DNA of 36,331 bases from Nocardioides sp. (lineage in GTDB: Bacteria > Actinomycetota > Actinomycetes > Propionibacteriales > Nocardioidaceae): positions 1 to 36,331 of the forward strand of contig JAICSC010000004.1 of NCBI GenBank assembly GCA_025937085.1, in the 5' to 3' direction. The notes beneath the pieces were generated by a model, which was given only the letters and a program-made list of their open reading frames with translations, searched no databases and was not told the origin of the DNA. A program made the translations under genes and the position numbers. Below are positions 1,891-32,627 of the stretch, piece after piece (the stretch's first letter is position 1; each line of letters starts with the position of its first letter).

Positions 1891-2658
1891 TCACGTCTGG
1901 GGGAGCACCCGGGCCAGGAACCGGCGGGTCCGCTCCTCCCGGGGGCTGCTGAGGATCTCGGCAGGCGGTCCGTGCTCGAGGATCCGTCCCTCGTCGAGGA
2001 AGCAGACCGTGGTGGCGATGTCACGGGCGAAGGCCATCTCGTGGGTGGCCAGGATCATGGTCGTCCCCTGCTCGGCCAGCTCGCGCACGATCGTCAGCAC
2101 CTCCCCCACCAGCTCCGGGTCGAGCGCCGCCGTGATCTCGTCGAGCAGCAGGAGGGTGGGCCGGGTGCACAGCGCGCGCACCAGCGCTGCCCGTTGCTGC
2201 TGACCGCCGGACATCCGGTCCGGATGCTTCTCGGCCTGGTCGGCCAACCCGAAACGCGCCAGTAGGTCGCGGGCCCGCTCCTCCGCCTCCGCCTTGGGTA
2301 CGCCGTGGACCCGGCGCGGTGCGAGGGTGCAGTTGTCGAGCACGGTCAGGTGGGGGAAGAGGTTGTAGGACTGGAAGACCATGCCGATGTGGCGGCGTAC
2401 CTCGCGCCGGTCGATCCGCGGGTCGGAGATCTCGCGACCCGCGAACGAGATCACGCCGTCGTCGATCTCCTCGAGCAGGTTCAGGCAGCGCAGGAGGGTC
2501 GACTTGCCGGAACCCGACGAGCCGATCAGGCAGATCACGTCGTGCGGCTGGACGGTCAGGTCGATGTCGCGCAGGACGACGTTGTCGCCGTACGACTTGC
2601 GCAGGTCCCTGACCTCCAGCAGCGCAGAGGCATCCGGCAGGGCGGCGTCCCGGCTCAT
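1891..2658 (-). CDS. Polar amino-acid ABC transporter ATP-binding protein (GlnQ/HisP-like)
   Basis: Walker A GSSGSGKST, signature SGGQQQR, Walker B LLLLDEITAALDPE, H-loop ATHEM. ATGA overlap with the upstream permease. Confidence 0.95.
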   Translation of the reverse strand: MSRDAALPDASALLEVRDLRKSYGDNVVLRDIDLTVQPHDVICLIGSSGSGKSTLLRCLNLLEEIDDGVISFAGREISDPRIDRREVRRHIGMVFQSYNLFPHLTVLDNCTLAPRRVHGVPKAEAEERARDLLARFGLADQAEKHPDRMSGGQQQRAALVRALCTRPTLLLLDEITAALDPELVGEVLTIVRELAEQGTTMILATHEMAFARDIATTVCFLDEGRILEHGPPAEILSSPREERTRRFLARVLPQT

Positions 2659-3530
2659 CGCGCGCCCTGCCTCTCGCGCTCCATCGCCCGGTGCTGGAGG
2701 TGGTCGGTGAGCCGCGCCAGCGGGATCGTGAGCACGATGAAGTAGCCGGCCACCACCGTGTACGGCGTGAAGTTGAAGTAGAAGTTCGCGTAGTCACGGG
2801 CGGCGAACATCGCGTCGAACAGGCCGGCCGCGCCCACCAGGGCGGTGTCCTTCTGCAGGCTCACGAAGTCGTTGAGCAGCGGCGGGATCACCCGACGCAC
2901 ACCCTGCGGGACCACGACGTACCTCATGGCCTGGAAGCGGGTCAGCCCGAGGGCGTCCGCGCTTGCGATCTGCGACGGATGGACCGACTCGATGCCGGAC
3001 CGGATGACCTCGGCCACGTAGGCGCCGTAGGACAGCACCAGGGCGACCAGGCCCCAGAAGAACAGGGAGTTCGTGATCCCCTGCAGGTTCAGCGCCGGCA
3101 TCCCGAAGGCGAGCATGAAGACCAGCAGGATCGTGGGGATCCCGCGGAACAGGTCGGTGTAGACGATCGCGACGATCCGGAGCGGGAGCAACAGCGGCGT
3201 CCGGGACTGACGCACCAGCGCGACGACCATGGCGAGCACCAGGATGAGCGCCTCCCCGAGGAGGAAGAGCAGGACGTTGTAGCGCCAGAAGGCGTGCCAG
3301 ATCGACGGCATCGCCGCCCTCGCGTCGTGCCCGGAGAAGAACGTCGCCTCGACGGTCGGCCAGCCGGGCGAGGACACCGTGACCACCCAGACCGCGACGA
3401 AGAAGACGACTGTCGCGACCGTGGCCACGGCGAGCGAACGCCGCCGCAGGGACCGGCGTACGTCGCGGCGCTCGAGCTCCCGGGAACTCGGTCGCCAGGC
3501 GTCCTCCCCGTCGGTCTGCTCCGGGATCAC
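2655..3530 (-). CDS. Amino-acid ABC transporter permease (HisM/GlnP family)
   Basis: Multi-TM protein with the typical EAA-loop region (GIESVHPSQIASADALGLTRFQAMRYVVVPQGVRRVIPPLLNDFVSLQKDTALV). The ORF extends to 3566, but GTG at 3530 gives a GTGA overlap with the substrate-binding protein stop. Confidence 0.9.
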   Translation of the reverse strand: MIPEQTDGEDAWRPSSRELERRDVRRSLRRRSLAVATVATVVFFVAVWVVTVSSPGWPTVEATFFSGHDARAAMPSIWHAFWRYNVLLFLLGEALILVLAMVVALVRQSRTPLLLPLRIVAIVYTDLFRGIPTILLVFMLAFGMPALNLQGITNSLFFWGLVALVLSYGAYVAEVIRSGIESVHPSQIASADALGLTRFQAMRYVVVPQGVRRVIPPLLNDFVSLQKDTALVGAAGLFDAMFAARDYANFYFNFTPYTVVAGYFIVLTIPLARLTDHLQHRAMERERQGAR

Positions 3531-4399
3531 TTCAGGACGGGCACGTTCACGGTCTGGCTGAGCCACTTCTTCTCGATCGCGTCGAGCGTGCCGTCACTCT
3601 TGAGGTTCGCCAGCGCCTGGTTCACGCAGCCGACCAACGGGTTGTCCTTCCCGAACAGCATTCCGAACTGCTCCGGGCTGCCGCTCTGCTGCTGGAACTG
3701 ACCGACGATCGTCGAGTTCGGGATCTGCACCGCGGTGATGTAGAACGCCGTCGGGAGGTCGGCGACGATCCCGTCGACCTGGTGGTTCAGCAGCGCCTGC
3801 TTGGCGACGTTGGTGTCGTCGAAGACCAGTGGCTGCGACGACGGCTGGATGTCCTCGCGGATGGCGGTCAGCGACGTCGTTCCGGTCTGGGCCCCGAGCT
3901 TGAAACCCTTGAGGTCGGCCAGCGTCGTGGCCCTGGCGGCGGGTGAGTCCTTGAGCGCGATCAGCGCCTGGGCCGCCGTGTAGTAGCCGTCGGAGAACGT
4001 GACCACCTTGGCCCGGGCCGGGGTGATCGAGATCTGGTTGATGTCGAAGTCGAAGTTCTTGTCGCCGGGTGCGTAGGACTTGTTGAACGGCTCCTTGACC
4101 CACGTCACCGCCGACCTGTCGAAGCCGAGCTGCTGGGCGACGGCGTAGGCCACCGCGGACTCGTAGCCCTTGCCGTTCGACGGCTTGTTGTGGGTGAACC
4201 ACGGGTCGTAGGCCGGGGAGTCCGTCGCGACGGTCAGGGCCCCGGACTTCAGGGTCTTGCCCTGGGCGCACTCGGCGGGGGTCTGGTTGGCAGCGGAGCT
4301 GGCGTTGGTGTCGGTGGCCGTCGAGCTGTCCTGCGGCGCGCACCCGAGCGCGAGGAGCATGAGCGGTACGAGGACGGCAGCCGTTCGAGGCGTGCGCAT
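3527..4399 (-). CDS. Amino-acid-type ABC transporter substrate-binding lipoprotein
   Basis: Lipobox LLALGC and an SBP_bac_3-type sequence (TVATDSPAYDPWFTH...FDFDINQISITPARAKVVTFSDGYYTAAQALIALK). Confidence 0.92.
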   Translation of the reverse strand: MRTPRTAAVLVPLMLLALGCAPQDSSTATDTNASSAANQTPAECAQGKTLKSGALTVATDSPAYDPWFTHNKPSNGKGYESAVAYAVAQQLGFDRSAVTWVKEPFNKSYAPGDKNFDFDINQISITPARAKVVTFSDGYYTAAQALIALKDSPAARATTLADLKGFKLGAQTGTTSLTAIREDIQPSSQPLVFDDTNVAKQALLNHQVDGIVADLPTAFYITAVQIPNSTIVGQFQQQSGSPEQFGMLFGKDNPLVGCVNQALANLKSDGTLDAIEKKWLSQTVNVPVLK

Positions 4400-4426: not shown

Positions 4427-4885
4427 TCACCGATGGTGCGTGTGCTCCTCATGGAACGCGTGCACGACCGCATGGCCCTTGCCGCGCTCCATCAGCCAGT
4501 GGTTGACCGGGACCGCAGCGACGAAGGCGATCGCCAGCGAGATCGCCAGCGACCACCAGAACAGGGTGGTGCCGAGGCCGGCCGCCATCGCCCCGGGAAC
4601 GACCAGGATGAAGAGGTTGTCGACGATCTCCATGGTGAAGATCGAGACGGTGTCGCTCGCCAACGCGGCACGGACCGCGGTCCTGCTGTCGGCACCGGCG
4701 CGACGGACGCCGGAGTAGGTGAGCAGGTAGCCGAACAGGAATGCCAGCGCGACCGACAGCGCGATGCTCGCGGTGTTGCCCCAGCTCCACCACGAGCTCA
4801 GGACCATGCCGAGGACCTCGCCGATGGCACAGCCGGTCAGGCAGTGCCGGGTCGCGGTGATCGCCATCCGCCAGCTCTCGGTCAT
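4427..4885 (-). CDS. DUF4396-type membrane protein
   Basis: MTESWRMAITATRHCLTGCAIGEVLGMVLSSWW...VSIFTMEIVDNLFILVVPGAM...VPVNHWLMERGKGHAVVHAFHEEHTHHR: HCxxGCxxGE motif, several TM segments, His-rich tail. ATG at 4885 preferred over the ORF start at 4921, which would put the upstream palindrome inside the CDS. Confidence 0.8.
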   Translation of the reverse strand: MTESWRMAITATRHCLTGCAIGEVLGMVLSSWWSWGNTASIALSVALAFLFGYLLTYSGVRRAGADSRTAVRAALASDTVSIFTMEIVDNLFILVVPGAMAAGLGTTLFWWSLAISLAIAFVAAVPVNHWLMERGKGHAVVHAFHEEHTHHR

Positions 4886-4896
4886 GTCGTCCGTTT

Positions 4897-4911
4897 TACC
4901 CCCTGGGGGTA
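4897..4911 (-). promoter_or_regulatory. CsoR-type operator upstream of the DUF4396 gene
   Basis: Minus strand TACCCC-CAG-GGGGTA-AAAC-GGACGAC-ATG. Same 6-3-6 palindrome and same 11-nt distance to ATG as the csoR operator at 29941. Confidence 0.7.
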
Positions 4912-4955
4912 TCTTGGGCAAGTCGCGGGAGGTGGCCCGTCTCTAGACTCCGGCC

Positions 4956-6269
4956 ATGCGGATCACCGTCATCGGATGTGGGTACCTCGGAGCCACGCAT
5001 GCCGCTGCGATGGCCGACCTCGGTCACGAGGTGCTGGGCATGGAGATCGACCCGGCCAAGCGGGAGGCCCTCGCTCGGGGGGAGGTCCCCTTCTACGAAC
5101 CCCATCTGGAGGACCTGCTCCAGCGCAGCGTGGCATCGGGACGGCTGCGGTTCACCGACTCGTACGCCGAGGTCTCGGCGTTCGGTGACCTCCACTTCCT
5201 CTGCGTCGGCACGCCCCAGCAACCCGAGAGCATGGCCGCGGACGTGAGCCAGGTGGAGAACGCGATCGCCGGGCTCGCGCCGTACCTGGACCGGCCGGCG
5301 GTGGTCGTCGGCAAGTCCACCGTGCCGGTGGGGACCGCCGAGCGGATGGCGTCGCGCCTCGCCGAGCTGGCCCCGGCCGGCGCCGAGGCGATGCTCGCCT
5401 GGAACCCGGAGTTCCTCCGCGAGGGCTTCGCCGTCCAGGACACCCTGCACCCCGACCGCATCGTGATCGGCCTCCAGGACGGCCGCACCGAGAAGCTGCT
5501 GAGGGACTTCTACGCGCCGATGATCGACCAGGGCGCGCCGGTCGTGGTCACCGACTACGCGACCGCCGAGCTGGTGAAGGTGGCGGCCAACGCCTTCCTG
5601 GCCACGAAGATCTCCTTCATCAACGCGATGGCCGAGGTGTGCGAGGTGACCGGCGCGGACGTCGTCGACCTCGCCGACGCGCTCGGGCACGACGCCCGCA
5701 TCGGCCGCCGCTTCCTCAACGCGGGCATCGGGTTCGGCGGAGGGTGTCTGCCCAAGGACATCCGTGCGTTCGTCCACCGCGCCGGACAGCTCGGCGTCGA
5801 GGACGCGATGACCTTTCTGCGGCACATCGACGGCGTGAACCAGCGCCAGCGCGAGCGCGTCGTACACGTCGCCACGGCGATGGTCGGTGGCACCCTCATC
5901 GGAGCACGGATCGCGGTGTGGGGTGCTGCGTTCAAACCCGACAGCGACGACGTGCGCGACTCGCCCGCCCTCTGGGCCAGCGGCCAGCTGCACCTGAGCG
6001 GCGCGCAGGTACAGGTGTACGACCCGCGTGCGAACGACACCGCCCGCCGCGTCTTCCCGACCCTGTCGTACGCCGACTCCGCCGTGGACGCCTGCCGCGG
6101 CGCCGACCTGGTGCTCCATCTGACCGAGTGGCCCGAGTTCCGGTCGATCACTCCTTCCGACCTCGACGGGGTCGTCGCGCAGCCTCGGCTGTTCGACGGC
6201 CGCAACGCGCTGGACCTCGACGCATGGCGGTCGGCCGGCTGGACTGCCAGGGCTCTGGGGCGTCGCTAG
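4956..6269 (+). CDS. UDP-glucose/GDP-mannose dehydrogenase family protein (nucleotide-sugar dehydrogenase)
   Basis: MRITVIGCGYLGATHAAAMADLGHEVLGMEID...VVVGKSTVPVGTAERM...WNPEFLREGFAVQDTLHPDRIVIG...GGGCLPKDIRAF; all three domains recognisable. Confidence 0.93.
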   Translation: MRITVIGCGYLGATHAAAMADLGHEVLGMEIDPAKREALARGEVPFYEPHLEDLLQRSVASGRLRFTDSYAEVSAFGDLHFLCVGTPQQPESMAADVSQVENAIAGLAPYLDRPAVVVGKSTVPVGTAERMASRLAELAPAGAEAMLAWNPEFLREGFAVQDTLHPDRIVIGLQDGRTEKLLRDFYAPMIDQGAPVVVTDYATAELVKVAANAFLATKISFINAMAEVCEVTGADVVDLADALGHDARIGRRFLNAGIGFGGGCLPKDIRAFVHRAGQLGVEDAMTFLRHIDGVNQRQRERVVHVATAMVGGTLIGARIAVWGAAFKPDSDDVRDSPALWASGQLHLSGAQVQVYDPRANDTARRVFPTLSYADSAVDACRGADLVLHLTEWPEFRSITPSDLDGVVAQPRLFDGRNALDLDAWRSAGWTARALGRR

Positions 6270-29940: not shown

Positions 29941-29959
29941 TACCCCTCCGGGGTAGAGT
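29941..29959 (+). promoter_or_regulatory. CsoR operator and leaderless-type -10 of csoR operon
   Basis: TACCCC-TCC-GGGGTA (29941-29955); TAGAGT -10-like hexamer at 29954-29959, then 7 nt to ATG 29967. Confidence 0.75.
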
Positions 29960-29966
29960 GTCAGGC

Positions 29967-30251
29967 ATGGACCACCCGGGCTATCTCAACGCCAAAGGCG
30001 ACGTGCTCAAGCGGCTACGCCGGATCGAGGGCCAGGCCCGCGGACTGCAGCGGATGGTCGAGGAGGAGCAGTACTGCATCGACATCCTGACCCAGGTGTC
30101 GGCGATGACCAAGGCGCTGCAGGCGGTGGCCCTCAACCTCCTCGACGACCATCTCGCGCACTGCGTCCGCGACGCCGTCACCTCCGGTGAGGGGGCCGAC
30201 GAGAAGCTGACCGAGGCCTCGGCCGCGATCGCGCGGCTGGTGCGCTCATGA
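29967..30251 (+). CDS. csoR: CsoR-family copper-sensing repressor
   Basis: LKRLRRIEGQARGLQRMVEEEQYCIDILTQVSAMTKALQAVALNLLDDHLAHCV: Cys / His / Cys Cu(I) ligand pattern. Confidence 0.92.
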   Translation: MDHPGYLNAKGDVLKRLRRIEGQARGLQRMVEEEQYCIDILTQVSAMTKALQAVALNLLDDHLAHCVRDAVTSGEGADEKLTEASAAIARLVRS

Positions 30252-30460
30252 GCGAGCCCGTCACCCGGACCTGGACGGTTGCCGGCATGACCTGCCACCA
30301 CTGCGTGGCCTCGGTCACCGAGGAGGTCTCCGAGCTGCCGGGCGTCCGGTCGGTCGACGTCCTGCTCGACGGCGGGCGGTTGACGGTCGAGTCGGCCGCG
30401 CCGCTGGCCGAGGACGACGTACGCCGTGCCGTCGAGGAGGCCGGCTACCAGCTGGCCTGA
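30248..30460 (+). CDS. copZ: Heavy-metal-associated (HMA) domain copper chaperone
   Basis: WTVAGMTCHHCVASVTEEVSELPGVRSVDVLLDGGRLTVES; MxCxxC motif; ATGA overlap with csoR. Confidence 0.92.
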   Translation: MSEPVTRTWTVAGMTCHHCVASVTEEVSELPGVRSVDVLLDGGRLTVESAAPLAEDDVRRAVEEAGYQLA

Positions 30461-30461
30461 G

Positions 30462-32627
30462 ATGAGCGCGCCGACGACCGCCACTGATCCGCGCGACGTC
30501 GACCTCGACATCGCGGGGATGACCTGCGCCTCCTGCGCCCGCCGGATCGAGCGCCGGCTCAACAAGGTCGACGGCGTGATCGCCTCGGTGAGCTATGCGA
30601 CCGAGCGCGCCCGCGTCTCCTACCCCATCGACGTGTCGACCGCCGACCTGATCGACGTCGTACGCCGTGCCGGCTATGACGCGACCCTGCGTTCCGAGGA
30701 GCCGGAGACCTCCGCACCGCGGCCGGTCCGGCTGGTCGCGGCCGCCGTCCTCTCGCTGCCGGTAGTGGCCTGGGCGATGGTCCCGGCCCTCCGCATCGGC
30801 GGCTGGGAGTGGCTTGCGGCCGGTCTCTCCGGGGTCGTCGTCTGGTGGGCCGGCTGGCCGTTCCACCGGGCGGCCGCGGTCAACGCGCGGCACGGCGCCA
30901 GCACCATGGACACGCTCGTCTCACTCGGCACGACCGCGGCCTGGGTCTGGTCGGTGGTCGCCCTGGTGCACGGGTCCGGCCACCTGTACCTCGAGGTGGC
31001 GGCCGTGGTGACGACGTTCCTCCTGTTCGGGCGGTACGCCGAGGCGCTCAGCCGGCGCCGTGCGGGTGACGCGCTGCGATCACTCGTGGAGCGCGGCGCG
31101 AAGCAGGTCTCGGTGCTGCGCGACGGGCGCGAGGTGCCGATGTCGGTGGAGGATCTGGCGGTAGGGGACAGGTTCGTGGTCCGGCCCGGCGAGAAGATCG
31201 CCACCGACGGCATCGTCGAGGACGGCGCGGCTGCCGTCGACCTCTCCCTGCTCACCGGCGAGCCCGTCCCGGTGGACGTGGGCCCGGGCGACGAGGTCGT
31301 CGGGTCCGGGCTGAACACTTCCGGCCGCCTGGTCGTGCGTGCCGTGCGCGTCGGCGCAGACACCCAGCTCGCGCAGATCACCCGGCTCGTCGAGCAGGCC
31401 CAGAGCGGCAAGGCACCGATCGAGCGGCTCGCCGACCGGGTGTCCGCCGTCTTCGTACCGGTGGTGCTGGGGGTCGCGGTCCTGACGCTGGCCGGCCGGC
31501 TGGCTCTCGGTGCTGGGGCGACGGAGGCGTTCACGGCTGCGGTGGCCGTGCTCGTGGTGGCCTGCCCGTGCGCCCTCGGCCTGGCGACGCCGACGGCCCT
31601 GATGGTGGGCACCGGCCGCGGCGCGCAGCTGGGGGTCGTGATCCGCGGACCGCACGTACTCGAGTCCACCCGCCGGATCGACACCATCGTGCTCGACAAG
31701 ACGGGGACGGTCACCACCGGAACGATGTCGGTGGTCCGCATGGAACCGGAGGACGGCGCCCTGCTCCGGCTGGCGGCGGCCGTCGAGTCGGGCTCCGAGC
31801 ATCCGCTCGCCCGCGCCATCGCGGATAGTCCCCGACGAAATGGCTGCTTCTCCACGGCCCACGACAGCCAGAACGTCGGGGACTATCGATCCGACCTCCC
31901 GGCCGTGACGGCGTTCGAGGCCCTGCCCGGCCAGGGCGCGCGCGGTGTGGTGGAGGGCCGCGAGGTGCTGGTCGGCCGGCCGAGCCTGTTCACCGCCCTG
32001 CCCGACGGCGTACGCCGATCGGTCGCCGAGGCGACGGACGGCACGCCGGTCGTCGTCGGCTGGGACGGCGAGGCTCGGGGTGTGATCGTCGTGGCCGACA
32101 CCGTCAAGCCGACCTCGGCGACCGCGGTCCGCGACCTCCAGGCCCTGGGACTCCGCACGGTCCTGCTCACCGGAGACCACGAGGCGGCGGCACGCCGGGT
32201 GGCCGACGAGGTCGGGATCGTCACCGTGGTCGCCGGCGTCCTGCCCGACCAGAAGGTCGACACCATCGCCCGGCTGCAGGCCGAGGGCCACGTCGTGGCG
32301 ATGGCCGGCGACGGCGTCAACGACGCCGCGGCGCTGGCCCAGGCGGACCTCGGCCTCGCGATGGGCACCGGCACCGACGTGGCGATCTCCGCCAGCGACC
32401 TCACCCTGGTCAGCGGAGACCTCCGCGGCGCCGTCACGGCGATCCGGCTGGCGCGCCGGTGCCTCGCGACGATCCGGGCCAACCTGTTCTGGGCGTTCGC
32501 CTACAACGTCGCGGCCATCCCCTTGGCCGCCGCCGGCCGGCTCGACCCGATGATCGCCGGGGGCGCGATGGCGTGCTCGTCGCTGTTCGTGGTCGGCAAC
32601 AGCCTGCGGCTGCGTCGCTTCCGATGA
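30462..32627 (+). CDS. copA: Copper-translocating P1B-type ATPase
   Basis: HMA GMTCASC, TGEPVPVDV, CPC motif VACPCALGLATP, DKTGTVTTG, SGSEHPLARAIA, MAGDGVNDAAAL. ATG at 30462, 1 bp after copZ. Confidence 0.95.
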   Translation: MSAPTTATDPRDVDLDIAGMTCASCARRIERRLNKVDGVIASVSYATERARVSYPIDVSTADLIDVVRRAGYDATLRSEEPETSAPRPVRLVAAAVLSLPVVAWAMVPALRIGGWEWLAAGLSGVVVWWAGWPFHRAAAVNARHGASTMDTLVSLGTTAAWVWSVVALVHGSGHLYLEVAAVVTTFLLFGRYAEALSRRRAGDALRSLVERGAKQVSVLRDGREVPMSVEDLAVGDRFVVRPGEKIATDGIVEDGAAAVDLSLLTGEPVPVDVGPGDEVVGSGLNTSGRLVVRAVRVGADTQLAQITRLVEQAQSGKAPIERLADRVSAVFVPVVLGVAVLTLAGRLALGAGATEAFTAAVAVLVVACPCALGLATPTALMVGTGRGAQLGVVIRGPHVLESTRRIDTIVLDKTGTVTTGTMSVVRMEPEDGALLRLAAAVESGSEHPLARAIADSPRRNGCFSTAHDSQNVGDYRSDLPAVTAFEALPGQGARGVVEGREVLVGRPSLFTALPDGVRRSVAEATDGTPVVVGWDGEARGVIVVADTVKPTSATAVRDLQALGLRTVLLTGDHEAAARRVADEVGIVTVVAGVLPDQKVDTIARLQAEGHVVAMAGDGVNDAAALAQADLGLAMGTGTDVAISASDLTLVSGDLRGAVTAIRLARRCLATIRANLFWAFAYNVAAIPLAAAGRLDPMIAGGAMACSSLFVVGNSLRLRRFR
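31824..31887. repeat. 64-bp nested palindromic element inside copA
   Basis: gatagtccccgacg-aaa-tggctg-cttctccacggcccacga-cagcca-gaa-cgtcggggactatc: perfect 14-bp outer arms, 3x3 internal loop, perfect 6-bp inner arms. Confidence 0.92.

Follow-up and report, generated by a model that had tools for sequence, protein, structure and literature searches.

A conserved CsoR-type operator very likely places a DUF4396 membrane protein in the copper regulon of Nocardioides

Does a membrane protein of a family without assigned function belong to the copper regulon of an actinobacterium? The question is raised by the window, the whole stretch of 36,331 nucleotides analysed here, in which two distant genes start behind the same kind of palindrome. 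One of them, on the minus strand (4427..4885), encodes a predicted four-helix membrane protein of 152 amino acids that matches the DUF4396 family (PF14342) over model positions 1-141 of 141 (138.1 bits against a curated cut-off of 27, E 3.6e-40). A perfect CsoR-type operator, TACCCC-CAG-GGGGTA (TACCCCCAGGGGGTA; 4897..4911, minus strand), lies 11 nt 5' of its ATG, palindrome, spacer and ATG together reading AAACGGACGAC. The other gene, on the plus strand, is csoR itself (PF02583; 29967..30251), followed by a gene for a copZ-like HMA copper chaperone (30248..30460, plus; PF00403, 62.4 bits) and by copA, encoding a copper-translocating P1B-type ATPase (30462..32627, plus; TIGR01511, 525 bits). 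Its operator, TACCCC-TCC-GGGGTA (TACCCCTCCGGGGTA; 29941..29955, plus), is likewise perfect and 11 nt 5' of the csoR ATG (GAGTGTCAGGC). In both cases the operator is overlapped by a -10-like hexamer 7 nt 5' of the ATG, namely TAAAAC (4893..4898, minus), which opens with the last TA of the DUF4396 operator, and TAGAGT (29954..29959, plus). An earlier note on these letters had claimed two 6-3-6 palindromes of one architecture, exactly 11 nt between palindrome and ATG, and a terminal operator TA that begins the hexamer; all of this held at both window sites, but the 11 nt spacing is not general among orthologues. The DUF4396 promoter is predicted, not mapped, and its function inferred; a leaderless start of the transcript is possible. 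As criteria for membership of a CsoR regulon we took an operator that overlaps the predicted promoter and is conserved in orthologues, further copies of the operator at copper genes, and the presence in the genome of a gene for a CsoR that has the Cu(I) ligands.

One objection is that the palindrome arose by chance in GC-rich DNA. In its favour, with a tolerance of two mismatches, 19 of 100 shuffles of the window contained two or more matches, and the window by itself is therefore weak evidence for an operator; what decides the matter is the genome together with its relatives. Perfect TACCCC-N3-GGGGTA occurs only twice across the 3.49 Mb of the draft genome, at the DUF4396 and csoR sites. Copies with one mismatch number five, two of which form a tandem pair, 36 nt apart, just 5' of a second copZ-copA. 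In 25 relatives, picked for carrying DUF4396, we found 58 perfect sites and none of the reversed pattern: 23 at DUF4396, 25 at csoR/copZ/copA operons (among them a site at a DUF305 gene that adjoins csoR), seven at tRNA-Gln and three at a gene for an MFS transporter. In this sample, the site is thus about equally frequent at DUF4396 and at the copper pump operon, and the criterion of further copies at copper genes is met. Many copies of the motif at unrelated positions, which the earlier note had named as grounds for refutation, were not seen, few such being present among the 58.

The seven tRNA-Gln sites (in L211, L215, L224, L226, L233, L236 and L237) lie near gltX and were considered as new targets, but were rejected: each is the 5' end of the tRNA-Gln gene plus an upstream TACCCC, with the acceptor stem making up half of the match. 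A site in L225, at first without an assignment, proved to belong to a csoR-copZ-copA operon masked by a wrong ORF call. The MFS transporter gene stands beside CsoR-type operators in L217, L218 and L219, with csoR adjoining in L219, and may be another member of the regulon.

Conservation of the palindrome 5' of orthologues had been set by the earlier note as a test, and it held. With at most one mismatch and within 250 nt 5' of the domain, the operator was found for 57 of 76 close orthologues from the same family and for 25 of 38 from the phylum and from plasmids, the reversed control giving 0 in each. In a set of 80 from named genomes (Nocardioides, Streptomyces, Actinoplanes, Nonomuraea, Amycolatopsis, Kitasatospora and others), which partly overlaps the same-family set in that at least one genome is common to both, 59 had the operator within 300 nt with at most one mismatch, again with a reversed control of 0 at that level. 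Perfect sites number 60 in the 782 kb of that set, and 50 of them are among these 59 operators. When ten upstream regions were aligned, ATACCC and GGGGTA were invariant and the remaining DNA was variable. The orthologous operators share the extended consensus A-TACCCC-N3-GGGGTA-T (A in 77/82, T in 67/82) and run into the -10-like sequence TAT in 67/82 and TATA in 45/82. The spacing between these 82 operators and the start codons, as assigned by us, falls mainly into two groups, of approximately 10-18 nt and 31-49 nt, the latter often with a Shine-Dalgarno-like sequence. What recurs among orthologues is thus the overlap with TAT/TATA, not the exact 11 nt spacing. The operator and its conservation are observed directly, and the criterion of a conserved operator over a predicted promoter is met, albeit without binding data. 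Given the reversed-pattern and orthologue controls, we reject the chance palindrome, for which they leave next to no room.

A second objection is that the site serves a neighbour, either the divergent UDP-glucose dehydrogenase-like gene or the amino-acid ABC transporter genes that lie downstream. In support, the site occupies the gap between two divergent genes, at a distance of 44 nt from the start at 4956, and the next gene begins 27 nt after DUF4396. The operator stays with DUF4396, however, while both flanking neighbours vary across orthologues, and we consider this explanation very unlikely. The ABC transporter gene set itself (1891-4399) runs in the same direction as DUF4396, and since some relatives share this order, co-transcription with DUF4396 is possible.

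The family is patchily distributed, being found in 81 of the 150 genomes from the same taxonomic family and in 53 of 399 from the phylum, and DUF4396 is hence an accessory gene. Nor is the operator universal: 21 of the 80 named orthologues have none with at most one mismatch within 300 nt, and only about one third of these have csoR, copA, copZ, DUF305 or another site nearby. Most DUF4396 copies stand alone, away from copA. Several operator-less orthologues, on the other hand, directly follow copA or csoR; those directly after copA and in the same direction were found in L020, L022, L025, L027, L028, L036, L043, L067 and L083, with further cases after copA in L268, L270 and L309. On the Kineococcus plasmid pKRAD01 the order is csoR-copZ-copA-DUF4396, again without an operator of its own for DUF4396. 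Other neighbours of the gene encode DUF305 and F510_1955-type proteins and, in one case, a DUF326 protein, and a more distant relative in Acidithiobacillus caldus lies within a P-type ATPase-DUF302-HMA-glutaredoxin cluster. The linkage to cop genes is in this way directly visible.

The regulator that would act here is encoded in the window. It is the only PF02583 protein found in the genome, an 86% complete draft, so that a second member could be missing. Its closest solved structure is Streptomyces lividans CsoR (4adz, E 4.3e-30), and in the alignment with 4adz the ligands Cys37, His62 and Cys66 are all in place (Cys-x24-His-x3-Cys); by this alignment the genome encodes a CsoR with Cu(I) ligands, as the last criterion asks. 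It could still be argued that the operator serves another CsoR-family sensor, of persulfide, nickel or formaldehyde, and that DUF4396 acts in that stress. G/C-tract operators are common to CsoR-family members (PMC3902906), and in L026 and L095 a divergent DUF4396 paralogue lies next to a CsoR-family gene whose product lacks the copper His ligand. Against this, the sole CsoR-family protein found in the genome has copper ligands, most of the other perfect sites in relatives are found at csoR/copZ/copA, and the neighbours of DUF4396 include copA, copZ and genes for DUF305 and DUF326 proteins. We regard this alternative, too, as very unlikely. This CsoR-family protein of L026/L095 is possibly a persulfide-type sensor, and its gene also adjoins a normal DUF4396 gene with an operator of its own.

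As a separate observation on this operon, copA carries an in-frame palindromic insert of approximately 64 bases, GATAGTCCCCGAC...GTCGGGGACTATC (window 31824-31887), which amounts to extra residues absent from relatives. Genome-wide, the arm pair GATAGTCCCCGAC/GTCGGGGACTATC has eight copies, against none for its reversed pattern.

Taken as a whole, DUF4396 is very likely a member of the CsoR regulon with a role in copper detoxification, though there are no binding, expression or copper-phenotype data. The proposal of the earlier note that DUF4396 is an uncharacterised member of the copper regulon is thus supported computationally, with CsoR binding and copper induction remaining inferences.

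Does the protein itself look suited to copper? An AlphaFold2 model (mean pLDDT 89.3; three rows from plasmid records were left out of the input alignment) has helices at residues 3-33, 37-62, 67-95 and 107-136 and a short C-terminal helix at 138-149. Loop 2 and the C-terminus carry positive charges, and by the positive-inside rule both ends are therefore predicted to be cytosolic. A fusion in L130 agrees with this: there, DUF4396 is joined to a weakly YtkA-like protein by way of one extra hydrophobic segment, followed by an apparently extracytoplasmic domain, and the counterparts of this fusion partner in other genomes are products of csoR-copZ-X-copA operons (E down to 1e-62). Helix 1 contains the motif HCLTGCAIGE (residues 14-23; 4817..4846, minus), with the putative Cu(I) ligands H14, C15, C19 and E23. 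The general form HCxxGCxxGE is invariant in 63 aligned sequences and 0.99-1.00 conserved in 115; in the latter set, H14, C15, C19, E23, D78, M85, E86, D89, H138 and H142 are 98-100% conserved and H145 93%. His residues make up 15% and 11% of the tails versus 1% of the core, and HCxxGC persists in many distant relatives, including those of Staphylococcus, haloarchaea and Pseudomonadota. Both the motif and the His-rich tail of the earlier note are thus real and conserved among orthologues, and the check it had proposed, conservation of the Cys/His motif, held.

Residue conservation is shown; binding of Cu(I) by DUF4396 is only inferred. The residues and the predicted topology are compatible with Cu(I) transport and no more, transport itself being an inference, and the conserved residues might serve another function. 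Neither a profile search nor a fold search found a PDB relative (best Foldseek E 0.42), and transport can therefore not be inferred from structure. A P1B ATPase or HMA chaperone domain was not found in DUF4396 either, Pfam giving only PF14342 and NCBIfam nothing.

CsoR is established, for its family, as a repressor that is released by copper, and a role of DUF4396 as a copper importer is unlikely for that reason. By inference from the family, apo-CsoR would occupy TACCCC-N3-GGGGTA over the -10 region of the DUF4396 promoter and presumably repress by blocking it. Rising cytosolic Cu(I) would be bound by CsoR, which would then leave the operator, and DUF4396 would be produced along with csoR-copZ-copA. 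The protein, with four membrane helices and both ends in the cytosol, may gather cytosolic Cu(I) through its His-rich tails and the C-terminal helix with H138, H142 and H145, and a putative intramembrane site of C15, C19 and E23 (helix 1) and D78, M85, E86 and D89 (helix 3) may hold Cu(I) or move it outward. Whether DUF4396 exports Cu(I) along this Cys/Glu/Asp/Met path is, by inference only, as likely as not, and we rate it above buffering or hand-over. In the rival reading, DUF4396 is no transporter but acts in the membrane as a buffer or chaperone for Cu(I), which it takes from the cytosol and passes to CopA or CopZ. Its occasional position directly downstream of copA, the His-rich tails predicted to be cytosolic, and the small size of a four-helix protein without a transporter relative in the PDB fold search all speak for this; the mostly solitary copies, apart from copA, speak against it, as do the conserved D78, E86, D89 and M85 deep in helix 3, which exceed the needs of a chaperone. 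On balance we lean against this rival. Of the modes that the earlier note had listed (export, sequestration or membrane copper handling), none is settled; export, buffering and hand-over all remain. A bolder version of the preferred export reading is that DUF4396 forms a new Cu(I) transport family, probably of oligomeric exporters with a fold unlike any solved structure. We judge this more likely to be wrong than right; if true, actinobacteria would have a second CsoR-controlled copper exit beside CopA, and related proteins would exist in haloarchaea and other bacteria.

No assignment of DUF4396 to CsoR was found in the open literature searched, and prior mention in subscription papers or regulon databases is not excluded. 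The sole mention of the family there is a DUF4396 gene that flanks a metal-resistance cluster in Acidihalobacter (PMC7760498). A Kineococcus copper proteomics paper does not mention the DUF4396 gene in the passages searched, and in those searched of a gut CsoR meta-regulon paper, restricted to Firmicutes, DUF2318 is named and DUF4396 is not. Within that literature, the regulatory logic is already known and the inclusion of DUF4396 in the CsoR regulon is apparently new. If true, a protein that pipelines still annotate as DUF4396 is a main component of the copper response of actinobacteria, and a widespread family of unknown function gains a regulator, a metal and a set of candidate ligands, making its role directly testable.

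How does this locus compare with known systems? The window protein is a full-length member of PF14342, for which no function is assigned and in which HCxxGCxxG(E/D) is kept in many distant relatives. Like CopA, DUF4396 has Cys in a predicted membrane helix and is, by inference, subject to the same regulation, but it lacks the ATPase domains of CopA and has no sequence or fold match to it. The motif of the mycobacterial RicR regulon is TACCC-N5-GGGTA, with the same half-sites and spacing as here. The window CsoR scores 137 bits on the RicR model, which is below the cut-off of 175, and DUF4396 is not known to be a RicR target. The CsoR regulon of S. lividans has three described targets, csoR, copZA1 and copZA2, and DUF4396 is not among them (PMC3902906). 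In that system, however, copZ-copA is likewise under CsoR, the TAC/GTA repeat is required for CsoR binding, and sites that fit the streptomycete consensus ATATACCCCTNAGGGGTATAT, a TAC-N9-GTA inverted repeat, bind CsoR in vitro (PMC3902906); it is this consensus that the orthologous DUF4396 operators match.
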